From Sphingobacteriia bacterium 28-36-52 (GTDB taxonomy: Bacteria > Bacteroidota > Bacteroidia > Chitinophagales > Chitinophagaceae): DNA of 64,000 nucleotides. The stretch spans positions 186,001 through 250,000 of the forward strand of contig NCGN01000009.1 in the NCBI GenBank assembly GCA_002281575.1. Reading direction: 5' to 3'. The notes beneath the pieces were generated by a model. It was not told where the DNA came from. It worked only from the letters and a program-made list of their open reading frames with translations, and did not search any database. A program made the translations under genes and the position numbers. Below are positions 55,598 to 64,000 of this stretch, one piece after another. The first letter of the stretch is position 1. Every line of letters starts with the position of its first letter.

Positions 55598-56638
55598 ATG
55601 GCAAAAATTTTGGTGACCGGTGGAACCGGATTTATTGGCTCACATACCATTGTAGATTTAATTGAAAATGGCTACGATGTAATCTCTATAGATAACTTTG
55701 CAAGGTCTACCACTATTGCCCTAGCTGGAATAGAAAAAATCACTGGTAAGAAAATCAAAAACTACACTGTCGATTTAAAAAACTTTGACGAAACAAGAGC
55801 TGTTTTCCAAGAAAATACAGATATCGCTGGAATTATTCATTTTGCTGCATACAAAGCCGTGGGCGAATCTGTTGAAGAACCATTAAGGTATTACGAGAAC
55901 AATATGTTTGGACTAATTAACCTACTAAAATGTGTTCAGGAGTTTTCGGTACCCAATTTTGTATTCTCTTCATCTTGTACAGTTTATGGCAATCCAGATG
56001 TAATTCCCGTTACCGAAAACACAGCAATTAAACCTGCAGAGTCTCCTTATGGAGCCACTAAACAAATGGGCGAAGTGGTTATTAAAGACTTTTCTAAAGT
56101 AGTTAATACCAACACTATTCTATTAAGGTACTTTAATCCGGTGGGAGCACATCCGTCTTGTTTAATTGGTGAACTACCTGTAGGTAAGCCTCAAAATTTG
56201 GTTCCTGCAATTACACAAACTGCAATAGGAAAGCTGCCGAAAATGTGGGTACACGGAAGTGATTACCCAACTAAAGACGGCTCTTGCGTAAGAGATTATA
56301 TACATGTGTCAGATATAGCACATGCACATACATTGGCCATACAATATTTATTGAATGGGAAAAATGAAACCAAATGCGACGTATTTAATTTGGGAACTGG
56401 AGATGGGGTAAGTGTGTTAGAAGCTATCCATACATTCGAGGAAGTAAGTAATGTAAAATTGAATTATGAAATAGGACCTCGCAGAGCTGGTGATGTAGTA
56501 GCTATTTATGCAAATAATGATGCAGCAGTTACTAAGCTAGGCTGGAAAATCAAATACGGAATAAAAGAAATGATGGAAACGGCTTGGAAATGGGAACTAA
56601 AATTGAAACAAGAAGCCGATCAAATTATCAATAACTAG
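55598..56638 (+). CDS. galE: UDP-glucose 4-epimerase
   Basis: GalE interconverts UDP-glucose and UDP-galactose. The 346-residue short-chain dehydrogenase/reductase has the NAD-binding GGTGFIGSH, IDNFARS, HFAAYKAVGESV, FSSSCTVYGNP, the YGATK catalytic Tyr-Lys, RYFNPVGAHPSCLIGE and DGSCVRDYIHVSDIAHAH. It provides precursors for surface polysaccharides. It is 60 bases after pit, probably a separate unit. Its stop overlaps that of the next convergent gene by four bases (CTAG). Confidence 0.95.
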   Translation: MAKILVTGGTGFIGSHTIVDLIENGYDVISIDNFARSTTIALAGIEKITGKKIKNYTVDLKNFDETRAVFQENTDIAGIIHFAAYKAVGESVEEPLRYYENNMFGLINLLKCVQEFSVPNFVFSSSCTVYGNPDVIPVTENTAIKPAESPYGATKQMGEVVIKDFSKVVNTNTILLRYFNPVGAHPSCLIGELPVGKPQNLVPAITQTAIGKLPKMWVHGSDYPTKDGSCVRDYIHVSDIAHAHTLAIQYLLNGKNETKCDVFNLGTGDGVSVLEAIHTFEEVSNVKLNYEIGPRRAGDVVAIYANNDAAVTKLGWKIKYGIKEMMETAWKWELKLKQEADQIINN

Positions 56639-57354
56639 GGCTGCTGTTCCGTTTTATTTAACAAAGCCAAACTATTATAAAAGGAAACAATTTTAACCAA
56701 ATCTGTTTCCTTTCTTATTTTAAGCCCTTCCCTACCAATATAACCTTTTACTTCATTTATCCAATCAGGGAACATCAATACCAAATCATCCACTTTTTTA
56801 ATCTGGTGCATTTCGTTATTAGCGAAAATATAAAAGTAGAATTGAGGTTCAAGCTTAAAGCTAACCCCTTGACCGTATTGCATTCGATCAGAAAAAGTGT
56901 AGTGTATATATTTAAGCAGCTTAGCATTCCCTTCAGCTAATACCTGATAAAAACTATTCCATCTCTGTTTATCAATTCTTGGAAATCCTGCTTGAAAAAC
57001 AGCCGCTTTTTTCCCTTCATTTAAAAATTCTATTCGCTTAACAGCGGCTGTTAAAACAATTAATTGTTGCTTTTCATTTTCAGTAAAAAGTTGGCTGTTG
57101 TATAAATTAAGTTTAAACTGATTCCCCTCAGTTACTTCCCCATTAAACAGTGTAATTCGTGCAGGAATAAAGTTGGAATTAAACCAAGGACTTCCTTCAT
57201 AAGGAATACCAGTAAAATTTCCATCAGAAAAATAGGAAGGATCCATATTAAAGCGGAAATAATAAACATTATAAGCACCTGCTAGCTGGGCGTTTGCAAA
57301 CTTGGGGAAACAAAAAAGAATAGCAATAAATATAAAAGTGACAACTAATCTCAT
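56635..57354 (-). CDS. Secreted protein of unknown function, paralogue of the neighbouring upstream gene
   Basis: The 239-residue product has a signal peptide (MRLVVTFIFIAILFCFPKFANAQ) and a globular domain I cannot name. It shares with the protein encoded upstream (57363-58034) the patterns GF..ID...WNSFYQVLAEGNAKLLKY versus FYQVLSDGKAKLL, RMQYGQG versus KMVYGTG, and a C-terminal LVKIVSFYNSLA versus LEKLFNYYNQLV. They are separated by eight bases, a tandem duplication that has diverged. It is likely periplasmic or attached at the cell surface. Confidence 0.68.
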   Translation of the reverse strand: MRLVVTFIFIAILFCFPKFANAQLAGAYNVYYFRFNMDPSYFSDGNFTGIPYEGSPWFNSNFIPARITLFNGEVTEGNQFKLNLYNSQLFTENEKQQLIVLTAAVKRIEFLNEGKKAAVFQAGFPRIDKQRWNSFYQVLAEGNAKLLKYIHYTFSDRMQYGQGVSFKLEPQFYFYIFANNEMHQIKKVDDLVLMFPDWINEVKGYIGREGLKIRKETDLVKIVSFYNSLALLNKTEQQP

Positions 57355-57362
57355 GAAAATAA

Positions 57363-58034
57363 CTACTTAACTAGTTGATTGTAATAATTAAATAATTTTT
57401 CTAAATCGGCCTGCCTTTTAAACTTAGTTTTCTCTTTTTTAATAAAAGCAGCCATTTCTGCAGACTTATCTTCCATTAAAGCCAAGAGATTTTCTTCTTT
57501 AGATACTTTAGTAATTTTAGAGCCGATTGATCCATAATAATTAATCAACTTATCAGTAGTAGTTACTGCTCCAGTGCCGTAGACCATTTTGGTTTCTGTT
57601 GCAAACTTGGTATCCATTAATAATTTGGCCTTGCCATCAGACAAAACCTGATAAAAATTATTTTGATTTAAATTATCTATTACATCAAACCCTTTTTCAA
57701 AAACAGTAATACTACCGTTGGGCATTTCAAATTCTATGCGATAAATAGGACTCACCACTTCCATATCAGCCCCGTCGGCCTCCATATAAAACAACCTGTT
57801 TTCTTGTAAAATCAGCTTATACTTTGCATCGCTCTTTAATTTTCCAGCTTTGGTATATAAAGAGGCTTTTAAATAGTCGGGATGAAATAAATAACTTGCA
57901 TTTTCAATACTAGCCGATTTAGACCGAATATCTAATCCATTAGCGTCTCTCAAGAAAATTCTAGTACCCACTTCTTGAGACATTATTGTATTGCTAACAA
58001 TTATGGAAGTAATTAAAAACAGTATTTTTTTCAT
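57363..58034 (-). CDS. Secreted protein of unknown function, paralogue of the neighbouring downstream gene
   Basis: The 223-residue product has a signal peptide (MKKILFLITSIIVSNTIMSQ) and the same fold as its neighbour: YLFHPDYLKASLYTKAGKL, IYRIEFEMPNGSITVFEKGF, NNFYQVLSDGKAKLL, MVYGTGAVTTTDKLI and EEKLFNYYNQLV-type end (residues ~208-222). The FYQVL-G-AKLL and YGxG motifs recur in both. I do not recognise a catalytic motif. It lies 19 bases after prfA on the same strand. Confidence 0.68.
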   Translation of the reverse strand: MKKILFLITSIIVSNTIMSQEVGTRIFLRDANGLDIRSKSASIENASYLFHPDYLKASLYTKAGKLKSDAKYKLILQENRLFYMEADGADMEVVSPIYRIEFEMPNGSITVFEKGFDVIDNLNQNNFYQVLSDGKAKLLMDTKFATETKMVYGTGAVTTTDKLINYYGSIGSKITKVSKEENLLALMEDKSAEMAAFIKKEKTKFKRQADLEKLFNYYNQLVK

Positions 58035-59169: not shown

Positions 59170-62130
59170 CTAGAAACGAAAGCTTATTCGGGTTCCTTTT
59201 CCCAATTCTGATATGATTTTAGCATCTAATCCAGCTTCACTAGCTCTATCTTGCATATTTTGCAGCCCGTATCCATCAGAGCTTTTTTTCATATCAAAGC
59301 CAATTCCATTGTCTTCAATAACCACTAATATAGGGTCATTAATAGCTATTTTTATGAAAATTTGAGTGCATTGAGCATGTTTCAAAGAGTTGGTTAATGC
59401 TTCTTGCATCATTCGCAACAAATGAATACTAACCCCAGGGCTCATCATTTTCTCTTGAATTATTTCTTCCTTAACGTCAATTTGAATAGAGGGATAATTG
59501 GGGGCAATTCTGTTTATTAAATTTTTAAACCGATCACTCAACGAAGTCATACTAATTTGTTGGTACTGCATTACCCAAATAGTTTCTCTAAGGGCACTAA
59601 CCATATCTTCTGCATTCCCTTTTAATTGATACATAGTTTCTGAACTATTGGAATCCATTTTTTCTAACTGGATAATATTTGATTTTATAGCTGCAGCATA
59701 AGCCCCTAAATGATCATGTAAGTCTCTAGAAATTCTTTCTCTTTCTTTATAAATCCCTTGTTCAACGGCAGCTTTTCGAAGCTGTTCTTGTATTTTTCTT
59801 TTAGTCAAAAATCGAATGAAAAAAACAATTCCCAACAATAAAAGAATACTAGCCGGAATAATGAAAAAGCTATTTTGCCAAATGGGAGGTTCCCGACTAA
59901 TATATAGCGTGCTTATTGATCCAAATTTCATTAAGGCAATATTTTCCGCTGCTCTAAATTCTAATTGCAATTTTTTATATGGCAAATTGGTAAAACTAAT
60001 TCTTCTATTGTTAGGTTGTAATGTTACCCACTGGTCAACTATTCCTAAACACCTATATTGATAAACAACTTTATCAGCATTGATAAAGCAAGGCGCAGAA
60101 ATTTCTAAAGAAATAGACTTGTCGTCAGCATCTAGTTGAAAGTGTTTGGTTATACTAACTGGTGAATAATTTATTGCTGCATCTGTAACAAAACATTTTA
60201 ACTGAATTGGAATTGGCCAAACGGTATTTGGATTAATCATTACCAATCCCTCAGAACTACCTAATAGTATATGACCCTTATTATTTTTAGCAATACTAGC
60301 CAATAAATAATCAGATGCAGGAACTCCGTTTTGTTCTGTTATTACATCTATTCTACCAGATTGTTGATTCAGCAAATTCATACCACTTGTAGTTGCTACC
60401 CAAATTCTATTATATGAATCTGCCATAATACCTGAAACAATATTACCAGATAACCCATTGGATTGATTATAAGAAGTGAATTTCCCATTGTCCCATTTAT
60501 AAATTCCATTACTTAAAGTAGCAATCCAAATATTACCTCTTTTATCTTCGGCACACCCAGTGATAATGGTTCTTTTGATATAAGGACTTTGATCGCTATC
60601 TGTTTTATAATGTATAATTCTAATCCCATTCTGGTCAAATACATCTATTCCTGCATTCGTGCTTACCCAAGTTCGTCCCTTACTATCAGTAAATGAATGA
60701 AGCACGTAAGAACCAGTGATTTGATTATTTACCAAAGAAGCTTCTGCATAATAACGAACAATTTGATTATTTATTAAATTCAAAATTATTAAACCAGATT
60801 TGGTAGCTATAAATAATTGGTTGCTCTTTTGATTAATATTTAAATGAAAAATGGTATTGTCTACCAATTTTTTATTTTGAACACTTGCCACTAATTCTGG
60901 AGCAGAAGAAGGATCAATTTTATAAAGTCCTTCATTTTCTATTGCAGCCCAAATACGTCCATTTTCACCCACCGCAAGTGCCCTAACTTTTTTTCGCACT
61001 ATTAATTTTGTTTGTTGGGTAATTGCAGTCTTTTTGTATAAACCAGAAATGGAAGCTACCCAGTCATTACCCAATGAATCTTGGGCATAAGCAAAAACTG
61101 TTTCCCGTTTATTTTCAGGTTGAAATAATTGAAAAGAGGATGAAGCAGGATTATAAAGTAAAGCACCATTATTGGCAAAACCAATCCAACTTAATCCAAA
61201 TGTATCATGATAAGTACACAAAACAGCATTAGATTGATTTAGCGATAAAGGCAATTGGCTAGATTTCCAAAAAAAAGGCTTAAAAGTCGAATCAATTTTA
61301 ATAATACCAGACAAACTAGAAACCCAAGCAATATTCTTTTGATCAAAAGAAATCTGGTTTATTTTTTCATTCAAAACAATACTATCCTTCAACCAACGGA
61401 ATTTTTTTGTGTCAAAAACCTGAATGGTTGGTTTTGATTCATTGGTTTCATTAACCACCCAAATTGCTTGATTTTGGTCATGGTATAAAGCAGTTGCAAC
61501 AAATGGTTGTTGATTATTTTGATGAGTGTCAAATATTTCTAAAAGCTTACCTGTGCTTGGGTGATATAAGTAGAATTGACCTTTGGAATATTTCCAAATA
61601 CCTTTTGCATTGGCAGTATAACAAGCATGATTATCTACATTTCCTGTTAACTTTTTAAAATACTTTGAGCGATGTTCCCATATAAAAAGTTGGCCCTCCA
61701 CTACTATAGCTAGATTGCCATTGCCAATTGGATAAATTTGATCAAATACATATTGAATTACTTTTTTCTTAGAAGGATCTGGGTGAATTCTTTCGAACTT
61801 TCCTTTGTTTAAATCCAATTTATTCAACCCATTTCTAGTACCTACCCAAATAGTTCCAGATCCATCCTCAGAAATAGCTGTAATATACTGATCGCTCAAA
61901 CTACTAGAGTCTGTTGGATTATGCTTGTACTGTTTAAATGACAACCCATCAAATCGATTCAAACCATCTTGCGTGCCCATCCAAACAAGGCCTTTGCTAT
62001 CTCTAAATATGGTCGTTACAGCATTTTGAGTCAGCCCATTTTTAATGGAATAAGGTAAAAATCCAGATTGACTATACCCCAAAAGGGCAAGTAATAATGG
62101 GATAATTAAACCGAATACCTTAAACTGCAT
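59170..62130 (-). CDS. Propeller-type sensor histidine kinase (HisKA_3)
   Basis: The 986-residue sensor has a signal peptide (MQFKVFGLIIPLLLALLGYSQ), about a dozen propeller repeats with the GLVWMGTQDGLNRFD / GTIWVGTRNGLNKLD pattern (~25-630), a Y_Y_Y-like Ig domain (~640-735; VVYQYRCLGIVDQWV), a membrane helix (FFIIPASILLLLGIVFFI), then a NarX-type dimerisation domain with the phospho-accepting His in SRDLHDHLGAYAAAIKS and HATPase_c (ALTNSLKHAQCTQI, EDNGIGFD, YGLQNMQDRA). It has no fused receiver or AraC domain, unlike hybrid sensors of polysaccharide loci. It is divergent from its LuxR-type regulator with a near-palindrome between. Confidence 0.92.
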   Translation of the reverse strand: MQFKVFGLIIPLLLALLGYSQSGFLPYSIKNGLTQNAVTTIFRDSKGLVWMGTQDGLNRFDGLSFKQYKHNPTDSSSLSDQYITAISEDGSGTIWVGTRNGLNKLDLNKGKFERIHPDPSKKKVIQYVFDQIYPIGNGNLAIVVEGQLFIWEHRSKYFKKLTGNVDNHACYTANAKGIWKYSKGQFYLYHPSTGKLLEIFDTHQNNQQPFVATALYHDQNQAIWVVNETNESKPTIQVFDTKKFRWLKDSIVLNEKINQISFDQKNIAWVSSLSGIIKIDSTFKPFFWKSSQLPLSLNQSNAVLCTYHDTFGLSWIGFANNGALLYNPASSSFQLFQPENKRETVFAYAQDSLGNDWVASISGLYKKTAITQQTKLIVRKKVRALAVGENGRIWAAIENEGLYKIDPSSAPELVASVQNKKLVDNTIFHLNINQKSNQLFIATKSGLIILNLINNQIVRYYAEASLVNNQITGSYVLHSFTDSKGRTWVSTNAGIDVFDQNGIRIIHYKTDSDQSPYIKRTIITGCAEDKRGNIWIATLSNGIYKWDNGKFTSYNQSNGLSGNIVSGIMADSYNRIWVATTSGMNLLNQQSGRIDVITEQNGVPASDYLLASIAKNNKGHILLGSSEGLVMINPNTVWPIPIQLKCFVTDAAINYSPVSITKHFQLDADDKSISLEISAPCFINADKVVYQYRCLGIVDQWVTLQPNNRRISFTNLPYKKLQLEFRAAENIALMKFGSISTLYISREPPIWQNSFFIIPASILLLLGIVFFIRFLTKRKIQEQLRKAAVEQGIYKERERISRDLHDHLGAYAAAIKSNIIQLEKMDSNSSETMYQLKGNAEDMVSALRETIWVMQYQQISMTSLSDRFKNLINRIAPNYPSIQIDVKEEIIQEKMMSPGVSIHLLRMMQEALTNSLKHAQCTQIFIKIAINDPILVVIEDNGIGFDMKKSSDGYGLQNMQDRASEAGLDAKIISELGKGTRISFRF

Positions 62131-62172
62131 ATAAGCTTTAAATTAATACATTTATTTTGAAGAACATTACAA

Positions 62173-62190
62173 ATACAGCATATGCAGTAT
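62173..62190. promoter_or_regulatory. Near-palindromic operator between the kinase and regulator genes
   Basis: ATACAGCATATGCAGTAT is symmetrical about its centre except for one mismatched pair (A/A). It sits 43 bases from the kinase ATG and 20 bases ahead of the first ATG of the regulator frame. Its 15-base core and flank, AAATACAGCATATGC (62171-62185), recurs exactly at 62897-62911. A LuxR-type dimer operator is the natural reading. Confidence 0.65.
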
Positions 62191-62225
62191 AGACTATTAG
62201 TATAATTAGGATGAACTTTAATTAC

Positions 62226-62897
62226 ATGATTCAAATTGGCATAGTAGACGACAAATCCCTTAATCGAAAAATGATTAGACAGAATTTGTATGGAATACCC
62301 AATATTGAAATTGTAATTGAAGCTGTAAACGGATTAGACTTTTTAGATAAAATAAAAGAAAAGCCTTCCAATCATTTACCCCAAGTAGTTTTGATAGATT
62401 TAGATATGCCAATATTGAATGGCATTGAAACCATTGCCATTGCTACCATACGTTTCCCATTGATTAAATTTATAGTATTAACTGTATTTGATGATGATGA
62501 AAAAATATTTGAAGCCATTAAAGCCGGTGCAGCTGGTTATTTATTAAAAGATGATGCTCCCGACATGTTAATTGATGCCATCAACAATGCATTCCATTTA
62601 AATGGAGCCCCAATGAGCCCTGCAATAGCTAGAAAAACACTAAAATGGTTAAAGCAAAGTAACCAACCATTTCCATCGAATCATTCAGCTTCAGATAATG
62701 TATTAAATGTTCTAACAGAACGTGAACAAGAAATTCTTAAACTTTTAGTAGAAGGTCAGGATTATAAAAAAATTGCAAGCACATTATTTATAAGCCCTCA
62801 AACGGTGCGAACTCATATCAGTAGAATCTATGAGAAACTGCATATCAATTCAAAAGCTCAGGCCATACAATTAGCCAACAAGTATAACCGGAACTAA
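62226..62897 (+). CDS. NarL/FixJ-type (LuxR-family) response regulator
   Basis: The 223-residue regulator has a receiver domain (~1-120) with IGIVDDKSLNRK, phospho-acceptor Asp in VLIDLDMPILNG (Asp58 by this start), VLTVFDDDE and LLKDDAPD, then a LuxR helix-turn-helix (~155-220) with LTEREQEILKLLVEG, KKIASTLFISPQTVRTHISRIYEKL in parts. An in-frame ATG at 62211 adds five residues; the later one matches family starts. It pairs with the divergent kinase. The palindrome at 62173 could be its autoregulatory site, that at 62898 a site for the downstream gene. Confidence 0.92.
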   Translation: MIQIGIVDDKSLNRKMIRQNLYGIPNIEIVIEAVNGLDFLDKIKEKPSNHLPQVVLIDLDMPILNGIETIAIATIRFPLIKFIVLTVFDDDEKIFEAIKAGAAGYLLKDDAPDMLIDAINNAFHLNGAPMSPAIARKTLKWLKQSNQPFPSNHSASDNVLNVLTEREQEILKLLVEGQDYKKIASTLFISPQTVRTHISRIYEKLHINSKAQAIQLANKYNRN

Positions 62898-62917
62898 AAT
62901 ACAGCATATGCTGTATT
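62898..62917. promoter_or_regulatory. Perfect 20-bp palindrome, candidate regulator operator
   Basis: AATACAGCATATGCTGTATT starts at the base after the regulator's stop codon and lies 46 bases ahead of the ATG of the following secreted-protein gene. It shares 15 bases with the near-palindrome upstream of the regulator. It lacks a U run and has no unpaired loop, which argues against a terminator, though it could also form a weak hairpin. Confidence 0.7.
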
Positions 62918-62963
62918 GTTTACCGCGTTCGACTACAATAGCTTCATTCAAAAATAATCAATC

Positions 62964-64000
62964 ATGAAAAAGCTAGCAATTTATGCAATACTACTTTTGT
63001 GCTGCAACAACTTATTTGCTCAAACAATAGGCGAAGTTGATCTTAAAGACATTAATAACTATGGTTTGAGAAAACTAAAAGATGCTCCTAAAAAAGTTTT
63101 CATCAGCCAATTCAGGGTAAATTTTCAAACAATGTATTTGGATACAGAAAAAAAATCAGGTGGATTTAGAGGTGGTAGTGATTATACAAGGAGTTATAAA
63201 AGTGCTGTTAGTGCAAGTTTATCGTTAGGTCTTAAAGGCGTACAAGAAAATGATTTGATAGATATTACAGATGAACTGTATAAAAACTTGATTGATCAAT
63301 TAAAAGCAGAAGGTTTTGAAATAGTTACAGCAGAACAAGCATTAGCAGCCGAAGAATTGCAAGACTGGGTTAAAAGAACAGGGGGAAGTTTAAGCCAAGC
63401 CCAATTTGATGGTTATGTATCTGTTTCGCCAAGAGGTTTTGATTATTTAGTAAAAGGCGTAAAAGATGATGGTAAAGAAAAAAATTCATTCTTTAGTAAA
63501 GCGCCAAAAATTTCCCAACAATTAGGGGGGACAATGGTATTGATGGTAAATATAGCAGTGCCTTTTGCCAAAGAGGCTGAATCAGGTGGAAGTAAACTAT
63601 TGGGTAGACTAGGTGGTGGTGCAAAAGTAGTTGCAGAAACCAATTTAATGATTGGTAGCGATGCATTAGACTATAGTGGAACAACAGGATTTTATGCCAA
63701 TGGGAGTTCTGTCATTGGTTTCAATATCAAACAAAGCATGTCTAATATTAGTGTAGGTAACTGGTTGTTAAAAAAGCCAATCACCATTGATGGTGTGCTT
63801 GAAAAGAAAAAATACAAAGCAGAAGAACAAGCTAAAGTGGATATGTGGGGAACAGATGCAGGATTATTCAGGGTATTTGATGTAGACGATCGATTCATGA
63901 AAAATGTACAAGCCATTCCAGTAGAGTCAAGTAAATACAAAGCTGGTGTTGCAGCAGCTGCAAATAAATACCTCAATGCAGTAATGGATGAAATCAGGAG
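62964..64000 (+). CDS. Secreted protein of unknown function, cut by the window end
   Basis: From ATG 62964 the frame stays open for 345 codons to the window end. It begins with a signal peptide (MKKLAIYAILLLCCNNLFAQ), then LKDINNYGLRKLKDAPKKVF, a Gly-rich segment (KSGGFRGGSDYTRSYKS), FEIVTAEQALAAEELQDW, a strand-rich region (GGTMVLMVNIAVPFAKEAE, LGGGAKVVAETNLMI) and DMWGTDAGLFRVFDVDDRF. I do not recognise the family. A perfect palindrome 46 bases upstream suggests control by the LuxR-type regulator. The 3' end is missing. Confidence 0.75.
   Translation, partial: MKKLAIYAILLLCCNNLFAQTIGEVDLKDINNYGLRKLKDAPKKVFISQFRVNFQTMYLDTEKKSGGFRGGSDYTRSYKSAVSASLSLGLKGVQENDLIDITDELYKNLIDQLKAEGFEIVTAEQALAAEELQDWVKRTGGSLSQAQFDGYVSVSPRGFDYLVKGVKDDGKEKNSFFSKAPKISQQLGGTMVLMVNIAVPFAKEAESGGSKLLGRLGGGAKVVAETNLMIGSDALDYSGTTGFYANGSSVIGFNIKQSMSNISVGNWLLKKPITIDGVLEKKKYKAEEQAKVDMWGTDAGLFRVFDVDDRFMKNVQAIPVESSKYKAGVAAAANKYLNAVMDEIR

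Follow-up and report, generated by a model that had tools for sequence, protein, structure and literature searches.

Gene content of the locus

The window (the whole stretch of DNA that was analysed, 64,000 nucleotides) carries toward its right-hand edge a sensor histidine kinase gene, a divergently oriented response regulator gene, and a gene for an exported protein. A palindrome lies on either side of the regulator gene, and each is followed by a predicted promoter element.

59170..62130, minus strand: sensor histidine kinase, 986 amino acids, with signal peptide, propeller, partial Y_Y_Y, membrane span, HisKA_3, and HATPase_c
62173..62190, no strand: putative operator 1, ATACAGCATATGCAGTAT, 7-2-7 palindrome with centre at 62181.5 and one mismatched pair; also assigned from its conservation in orthologues and a position typical of the family
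62213..62220, plus strand: predicted -7 box of the regulator promoter, GAACTTTA (consensus TAnnTTTG), predicted transcript start 62225
62226..62897, plus strand: NarL-family response regulator, 223 amino acids from the revised start (228 amino acids from 62211)
62898..62917, no strand: putative operator 2, AATACAGCATATGCTGTATT, perfect 20-bp palindrome with centre at 62907.5
62939..62946, plus strand: predicted -7 box of the exported-protein promoter, TAGCTTCA, predicted transcript start 62951
62964..64000, plus strand: open reading frame of the exported protein, 349 amino acids, signal peptide, running past the window edge to ~64013 (L063:3965-5014)

In Pfam, the kinase matches Reg_prop (2.2e-23), HisKA_3 (3e-6), and HATPase_c (8.9e-11), as well as Y_Y_Y below the cut-off of that family (4.7e-5). 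The regulator combines a receiver (Response_reg, 8.2e-17) with a GerE-type HTH domain (GerE, 5.9e-20), and its closest solved chains are VraR and NarL. In the numbering of the 228-residue open reading frame, the translation contains the canonical phosphorylation residues D13/D14, D63, T91, and K113, and the recognition helix lies around T201, S204, and R205. Together with the HisKA_3 partner kinase, these features place the protein in the NarL/FixJ family. A quorum-sensing LuxR identity was rejected, because the N-terminal domain is Response_reg and an autoinducer-binding domain was not found in Pfam; the domains identify the protein as a response regulator of a two-component system. Its start is most likely ATG 62226 (MIQIGIV...) and not 62211, because the orthologues begin there and the predicted -7 box spans 62213-62220.

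The exported protein has no match in Pfam, NCBIfam, or the PDB. An AlphaFold model built from 7 sequences reached a mean pLDDT of 54, and a PDB fold search with this model returned nothing, so the model was not informative. Distant homologues, 25-31% identical to the exported protein, are encoded at most ~3 kb from a NarL-type regulator and a kinase in four of five other genera, and at one such locus (G244) sites are found before both genes, with the boxes where expected. Elsewhere in the window, two adjacent minus-strand genes (56635-57354 and 57363-58034) encode signal-peptide proteins of similar size without a Pfam match; this pair adjoins a peptide chain release factor gene.

Palindromes and promoter geometry

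The sequence-only reading had described a repeated 15-mer as part of two palindromes. A string search locates the two copies of AAATACAGCATATGC exactly where they had been placed (62171-62185 and 62897-62911), and the palindromes themselves are as described, one of 18 bp with a single mismatched pair (62173-62190) and one of 20 bp without any (62898-62917), which begins immediately 3' of the regulator stop codon. Both share the layout TACAGCA-TA-TGCTGTA, i.e. inverted 7-base half-sites separated by a 2-bp spacer, with one changed base in operator 1. The 18-mer ATACAGCATATGCTGTAT accordingly matches at 62173-62190 with one mismatch and at 62899-62916 with none, where 0.04 matches with up to three mismatches are expected in the window.

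None of 2000 dinucleotide shuffles of the operator 2 intergenic stretch contained a perfect 20-bp palindrome. The longest word common to both intergenic stretches comprises 14 bases (15 including the last base of the stop codon), whereas 2000 shuffles reached no more than 12. Neither the perfect palindrome nor a shared word of this length is expected by chance. The palindrome of operator 1 (8/9 pairs) is by itself not beyond chance, because 98 of 2000 shuffles equal it.

Throughout the 3.18-Mb Sediminibacterium genome, the two palindromes are the only two good matches. The search for further copies that had been proposed along with the palindromes yielded no other site within two mismatches of the 18-mer; the sole site with three mismatches lies inside an open reading frame, as do 14 of the 16 additional matches to a looser consensus. 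When a larger regulon was sought in the same genome by consensus and composite patterns, chance-like matches alone were obtained. The wider regulon in this genome appears to be empty, with weak sites possible, which is consistent with a self-contained circuit.

Palindromes in such positions could also be RNA hairpins or terminators, as operator 2 directly follows the regulator stop codon and its RNA folds with -11.1 kcal/mol (z = -2.8). However, a U run is absent 3' of operator 2, and operator 1 lies in a promoter and forms an RNA fold no better than that of shuffles. The terminator or hairpin reading was rejected on the missing U run and the shuffle-like fold, and it becomes scarcely conceivable given that the spacing to a -7 box is fixed at both sites and that the site of co-directional relatives overlaps the kinase stop codon directly before the regulator.

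Primary-sigma promoters of Bacteroidota are characterized by TTTG at -33 and TAnnTTTG at -7 (PMC7366714, PMC9723704). In the window, the centre of either operator lies 31.5 bp upstream of a predicted -7 box. These boxes match TAnnTTTG only partially and were assigned from the conservation of the A..TT columns at fixed spacing, together with the published position rule. At the exported-protein promoter, the spacing is kept in orthologues (e.g. TAGTTTCA and TAGCTTTG). The -7 box of Flavobacterium occupies -12 to -5 (PMC9723704); by this rule, the operators would lie at about -43.5, and transcription would begin at 62225 and 62951.

A spacing of 31.5 bp and a predicted position of -43.5 agree with a class II-like arrangement, in which an activator site near -42 is fixed to the core promoter. 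E. coli promoters can be activated from one NarL 7-2-7 site alone, at -44.5 and 32 bp from the -10 element (PMC9314961). By analogy, the operators occupy the position of an activator, from which we infer activation itself. The regulator mRNA is predicted to be near-leaderless (start 62225, ATG 62226), and the -7 box and the ATG are tightly packed in many relatives, although leaderless mRNAs are rare in Bacteroidota.

Sites, spacing, and recognition helix in related loci

When the same regions are aligned in related genomes, both sites are found to be conserved beside the orthologues and not lost. Orthologues from Sediminibacterium have both sites at constant positions. At a locus from another genus (L095, regulator 67% identical), both sites read TACAGCATTTGCTGTA, and this same changed sequence in both indicates that the sites changed together. 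Other relatives show changes that compensate each other and preserve the palindrome (e.g. TAAGGCA-AA-TGCCTTA in L100). In L094, the regulator-side site is degraded and the site of the exported-protein gene is a perfect palindrome.

An EM motif search detected a 7-2-7 site in 72 of 95 non-redundant regulator upstream regions and no comparable motif in shuffled input. Anchoring these 72 sites reveals two conserved blocks, namely the 7-2-7 site ending TATTG and the A..TT of the -7 box, the TT of which (bases 44-45 of the anchored alignment) is 97-99% conserved. The 20 bp between site and box are random, and the flanks are nearly without information. The spacing from site to box is fixed, unlike the variable distance to the start codon, indicating a constraint on the promoter and not merely shared ancestry of the stretch. 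Among held-out loci, A..TT is found exactly at the predicted offset in 24 of 30. The 7-2-7 rule is not universal, because a confident site is missing from 23 of the 95 loci used for training and from 34 of the 64 that were held out.

The two operators border on the -33 region or reach into it, and the regulator might therefore bind them and yet repress, by blocking polymerase at the -33 element. This is improbable, since the 31.5 bp to the -7 box are fixed in ~100 loci with varying start-codon distance, as would fit a contact-dependent activator, whereas repressors tolerate variable positions. In addition, a NarL site at a nearly identical position activates in E. coli (PMC9314961).

The regulator had initially been proposed to control its own gene, the exported-protein gene, and the propeller kinase gene. 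The first two assignments hold up in the comparison of related loci, but the third does not, because the kinase-side distance from site to promoter shifts by up to ~6 bp among relatives and most of them have another gene order. That operator 1, read in reverse, also serves the kinase gene in addition to the two promoters is rather unlikely. The kinase start is indeed divergent and only ~43 bp from operator 1, with a conserved GTATTAATTTA block in between, but orthologues differ by up to ~6 bp in the distance from operator 1 to this block, and most relatives lack the divergent arrangement, their kinase gene lying upstream of the regulator gene and co-directional with it.

A second site within three mismatches of the locus's own site, with a -7 box at equal spacing, is present in 36 of the 72 loci (five shuffled-site controls: 0, 0, 0, 0, and 1). 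Loci of the window type have it 3' of the regulator; in many TACTACA-type loci it is ~2 kb distant and precedes a gene that diverges from the kinase gene. A simple signal-peptide rule marks the products of 22 of 29 predicted target genes as apparently exported, compared with 40 of 164 background open reading frames (p = 1.8e-7). The kinases of twin-site loci vary (propeller type, TPR type, and shorter types), indicating that the twin-site layout is independent of the type of sensor.

Some loci show other targets or motifs. The predicted second-site target in L141 and L159 starts MSTxIERFVIRHTAGSK, and resembles an FHA-domain protein rather than an exported one; another predicted target, in L103, is a WG-repeat-like gene. 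In L242 (G475) and L243 (G306), the regulator gene and the exported-protein gene are each preceded by a motif that starts with TACTACTTTTTT; the two match and form a twin arrangement, here of another motif that is not palindromic. Four Sediminibacterium relatives carry an ATACCGC...GCGGTAT palindrome (L174:5321-5338 in G060, L209:3359-3376 in G093, L208:2360-2377 in G016, and L207:2368-2385 in G070) with TAnnTT at the equal 31.5-bp spacing, which in G060 lies before the gene of a WG-repeat exported protein.

The sequence of the site appears to track the recognition-helix residues of the adjacent regulator. Of ~223 regulator columns, the one most informative about half-site position 3 is residue 201, in the left as in the right half; for left-half positions 4 and 5 it is residue 204. 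In the alignment, these two residues correspond to NarL residues 189 and 192 of the recognition helix, which contact DNA in NarL. All four held-out N201 loci have TAG or a TAG-type half-site (G at position 3 in at least one half-site), compared with 1 of 26 others (hypergeometric p ~2e-4, hand-computed and without tree correction); the link between residue 204 and position 5 is weaker in the held-out loci. Because a tree-aware count gives only 3-5 independent changes, which are concordant for residue 201 and not significant alone, the link is suggestive, and best for residue 201.

Another, perhaps global, transcription factor could bind the palindromes, in which case their link with the regulator would be coincidental. 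Paralogous NarL-type regulators are encoded in the genome, and in relatives a ATACCGCATATGCGGTAT site precedes a WG-repeat gene at equal spacing. Nevertheless, another factor is very improbable, given that good sites number only two genome-wide, that the site subtype matches the adjacent regulator and varies with its recognition helix, and that the motif upstream of one paralogue in this genome is a different one. Conservation in orthologues, fixed promoter spacing, and helix covariation all point to the palindromes as sites of the NarL/LuxR-type regulator, as originally proposed, and with the subtype-matched second sites they also argue for the local circuit.

Proposed circuit and related systems

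The palindromes are very probably the operators of the regulator whose gene they flank, which in its phosphorylated form would activate its own gene and one exported-protein gene. We infer phosphorylation, binding, activation rather than repression, and a periplasmic signal. The propeller kinase would phosphorylate the regulator, and a regulator dimer would bind each 7-2-7 site at about -43.5, adjoining the -33 element, and activate transcription from 31.5 bp away from the -7 box. Operator 1 would drive the regulator gene, resulting in positive autoregulation through a near-leaderless mRNA, and operator 2 would drive the adjacent exported-protein gene, so that the regulon in this genome would essentially consist of two promoters.

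From sequence, we assign the operators with high confidence to a system of an ordinary type, an autoregulated NarL-type two-component circuit. The new part would be the family-wide, precisely spaced twin-operator plan, together with a possible recognition code. Chitinophagaceae may even harbor a large radiation of insulated circuits, in each of which a NarL-type regulator and twin 7-2-7 operators 31.5 bp upstream of the -7 box drive the regulator itself and an exported protein, and operator base 3 is set largely by residue 201 (N for TAG, K or T for TAC/TAA); we consider this generalization evenly balanced between true and false.

If it is true, the targets and the specificity of such circuits could be read from sequence. 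Bacteroidota possess very many two-component systems without a known target, and the paired, precisely spaced layout in dozens of related circuits suggests that the targets of otherwise uncharacterized sensor systems are readable from DNA. A composite signature beside a regulator (matched 7-2-7 site, 31.5 bp, and -7 box) would point to them directly and, in a phylum whose promoters are unusual, would also predict where transcripts start. The diverged regulators and their matched operators further provide a natural series on which the recognition of DNA by NarL-type proteins can be studied. Neither the site nor the architecture is described in the literature that was searched, and absence from it is weak evidence.

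Among known systems, the circuit resembles the NarL promoters of E. coli (ogt derivatives and yeaR), which share the receiver and GerE-type HTH regulator and the inverted 7-2-7 half-sites, and at which one site is enough for activation, placed ~32 bp upstream of the -10 element (PMC9314961). It differs from them in the half-site sequence, in the Bacteroidota -7/-33 promoter, and in a propeller kinase that takes the place of NarX/NarQ, and it is autoregulated and apparently confined to two promoters. The boxes and their positions fit the primary-sigma promoters of Bacteroidota, except that the -33 element is here adjoined or replaced by the regulator site. Some two-component systems regulate themselves and act locally, on an adjacent target gene. 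The circuit shares with them the set of kinase, regulator, and one neighboring target, whereas its twin operators, their identical spacing, and the several gene orders across one family set it apart.
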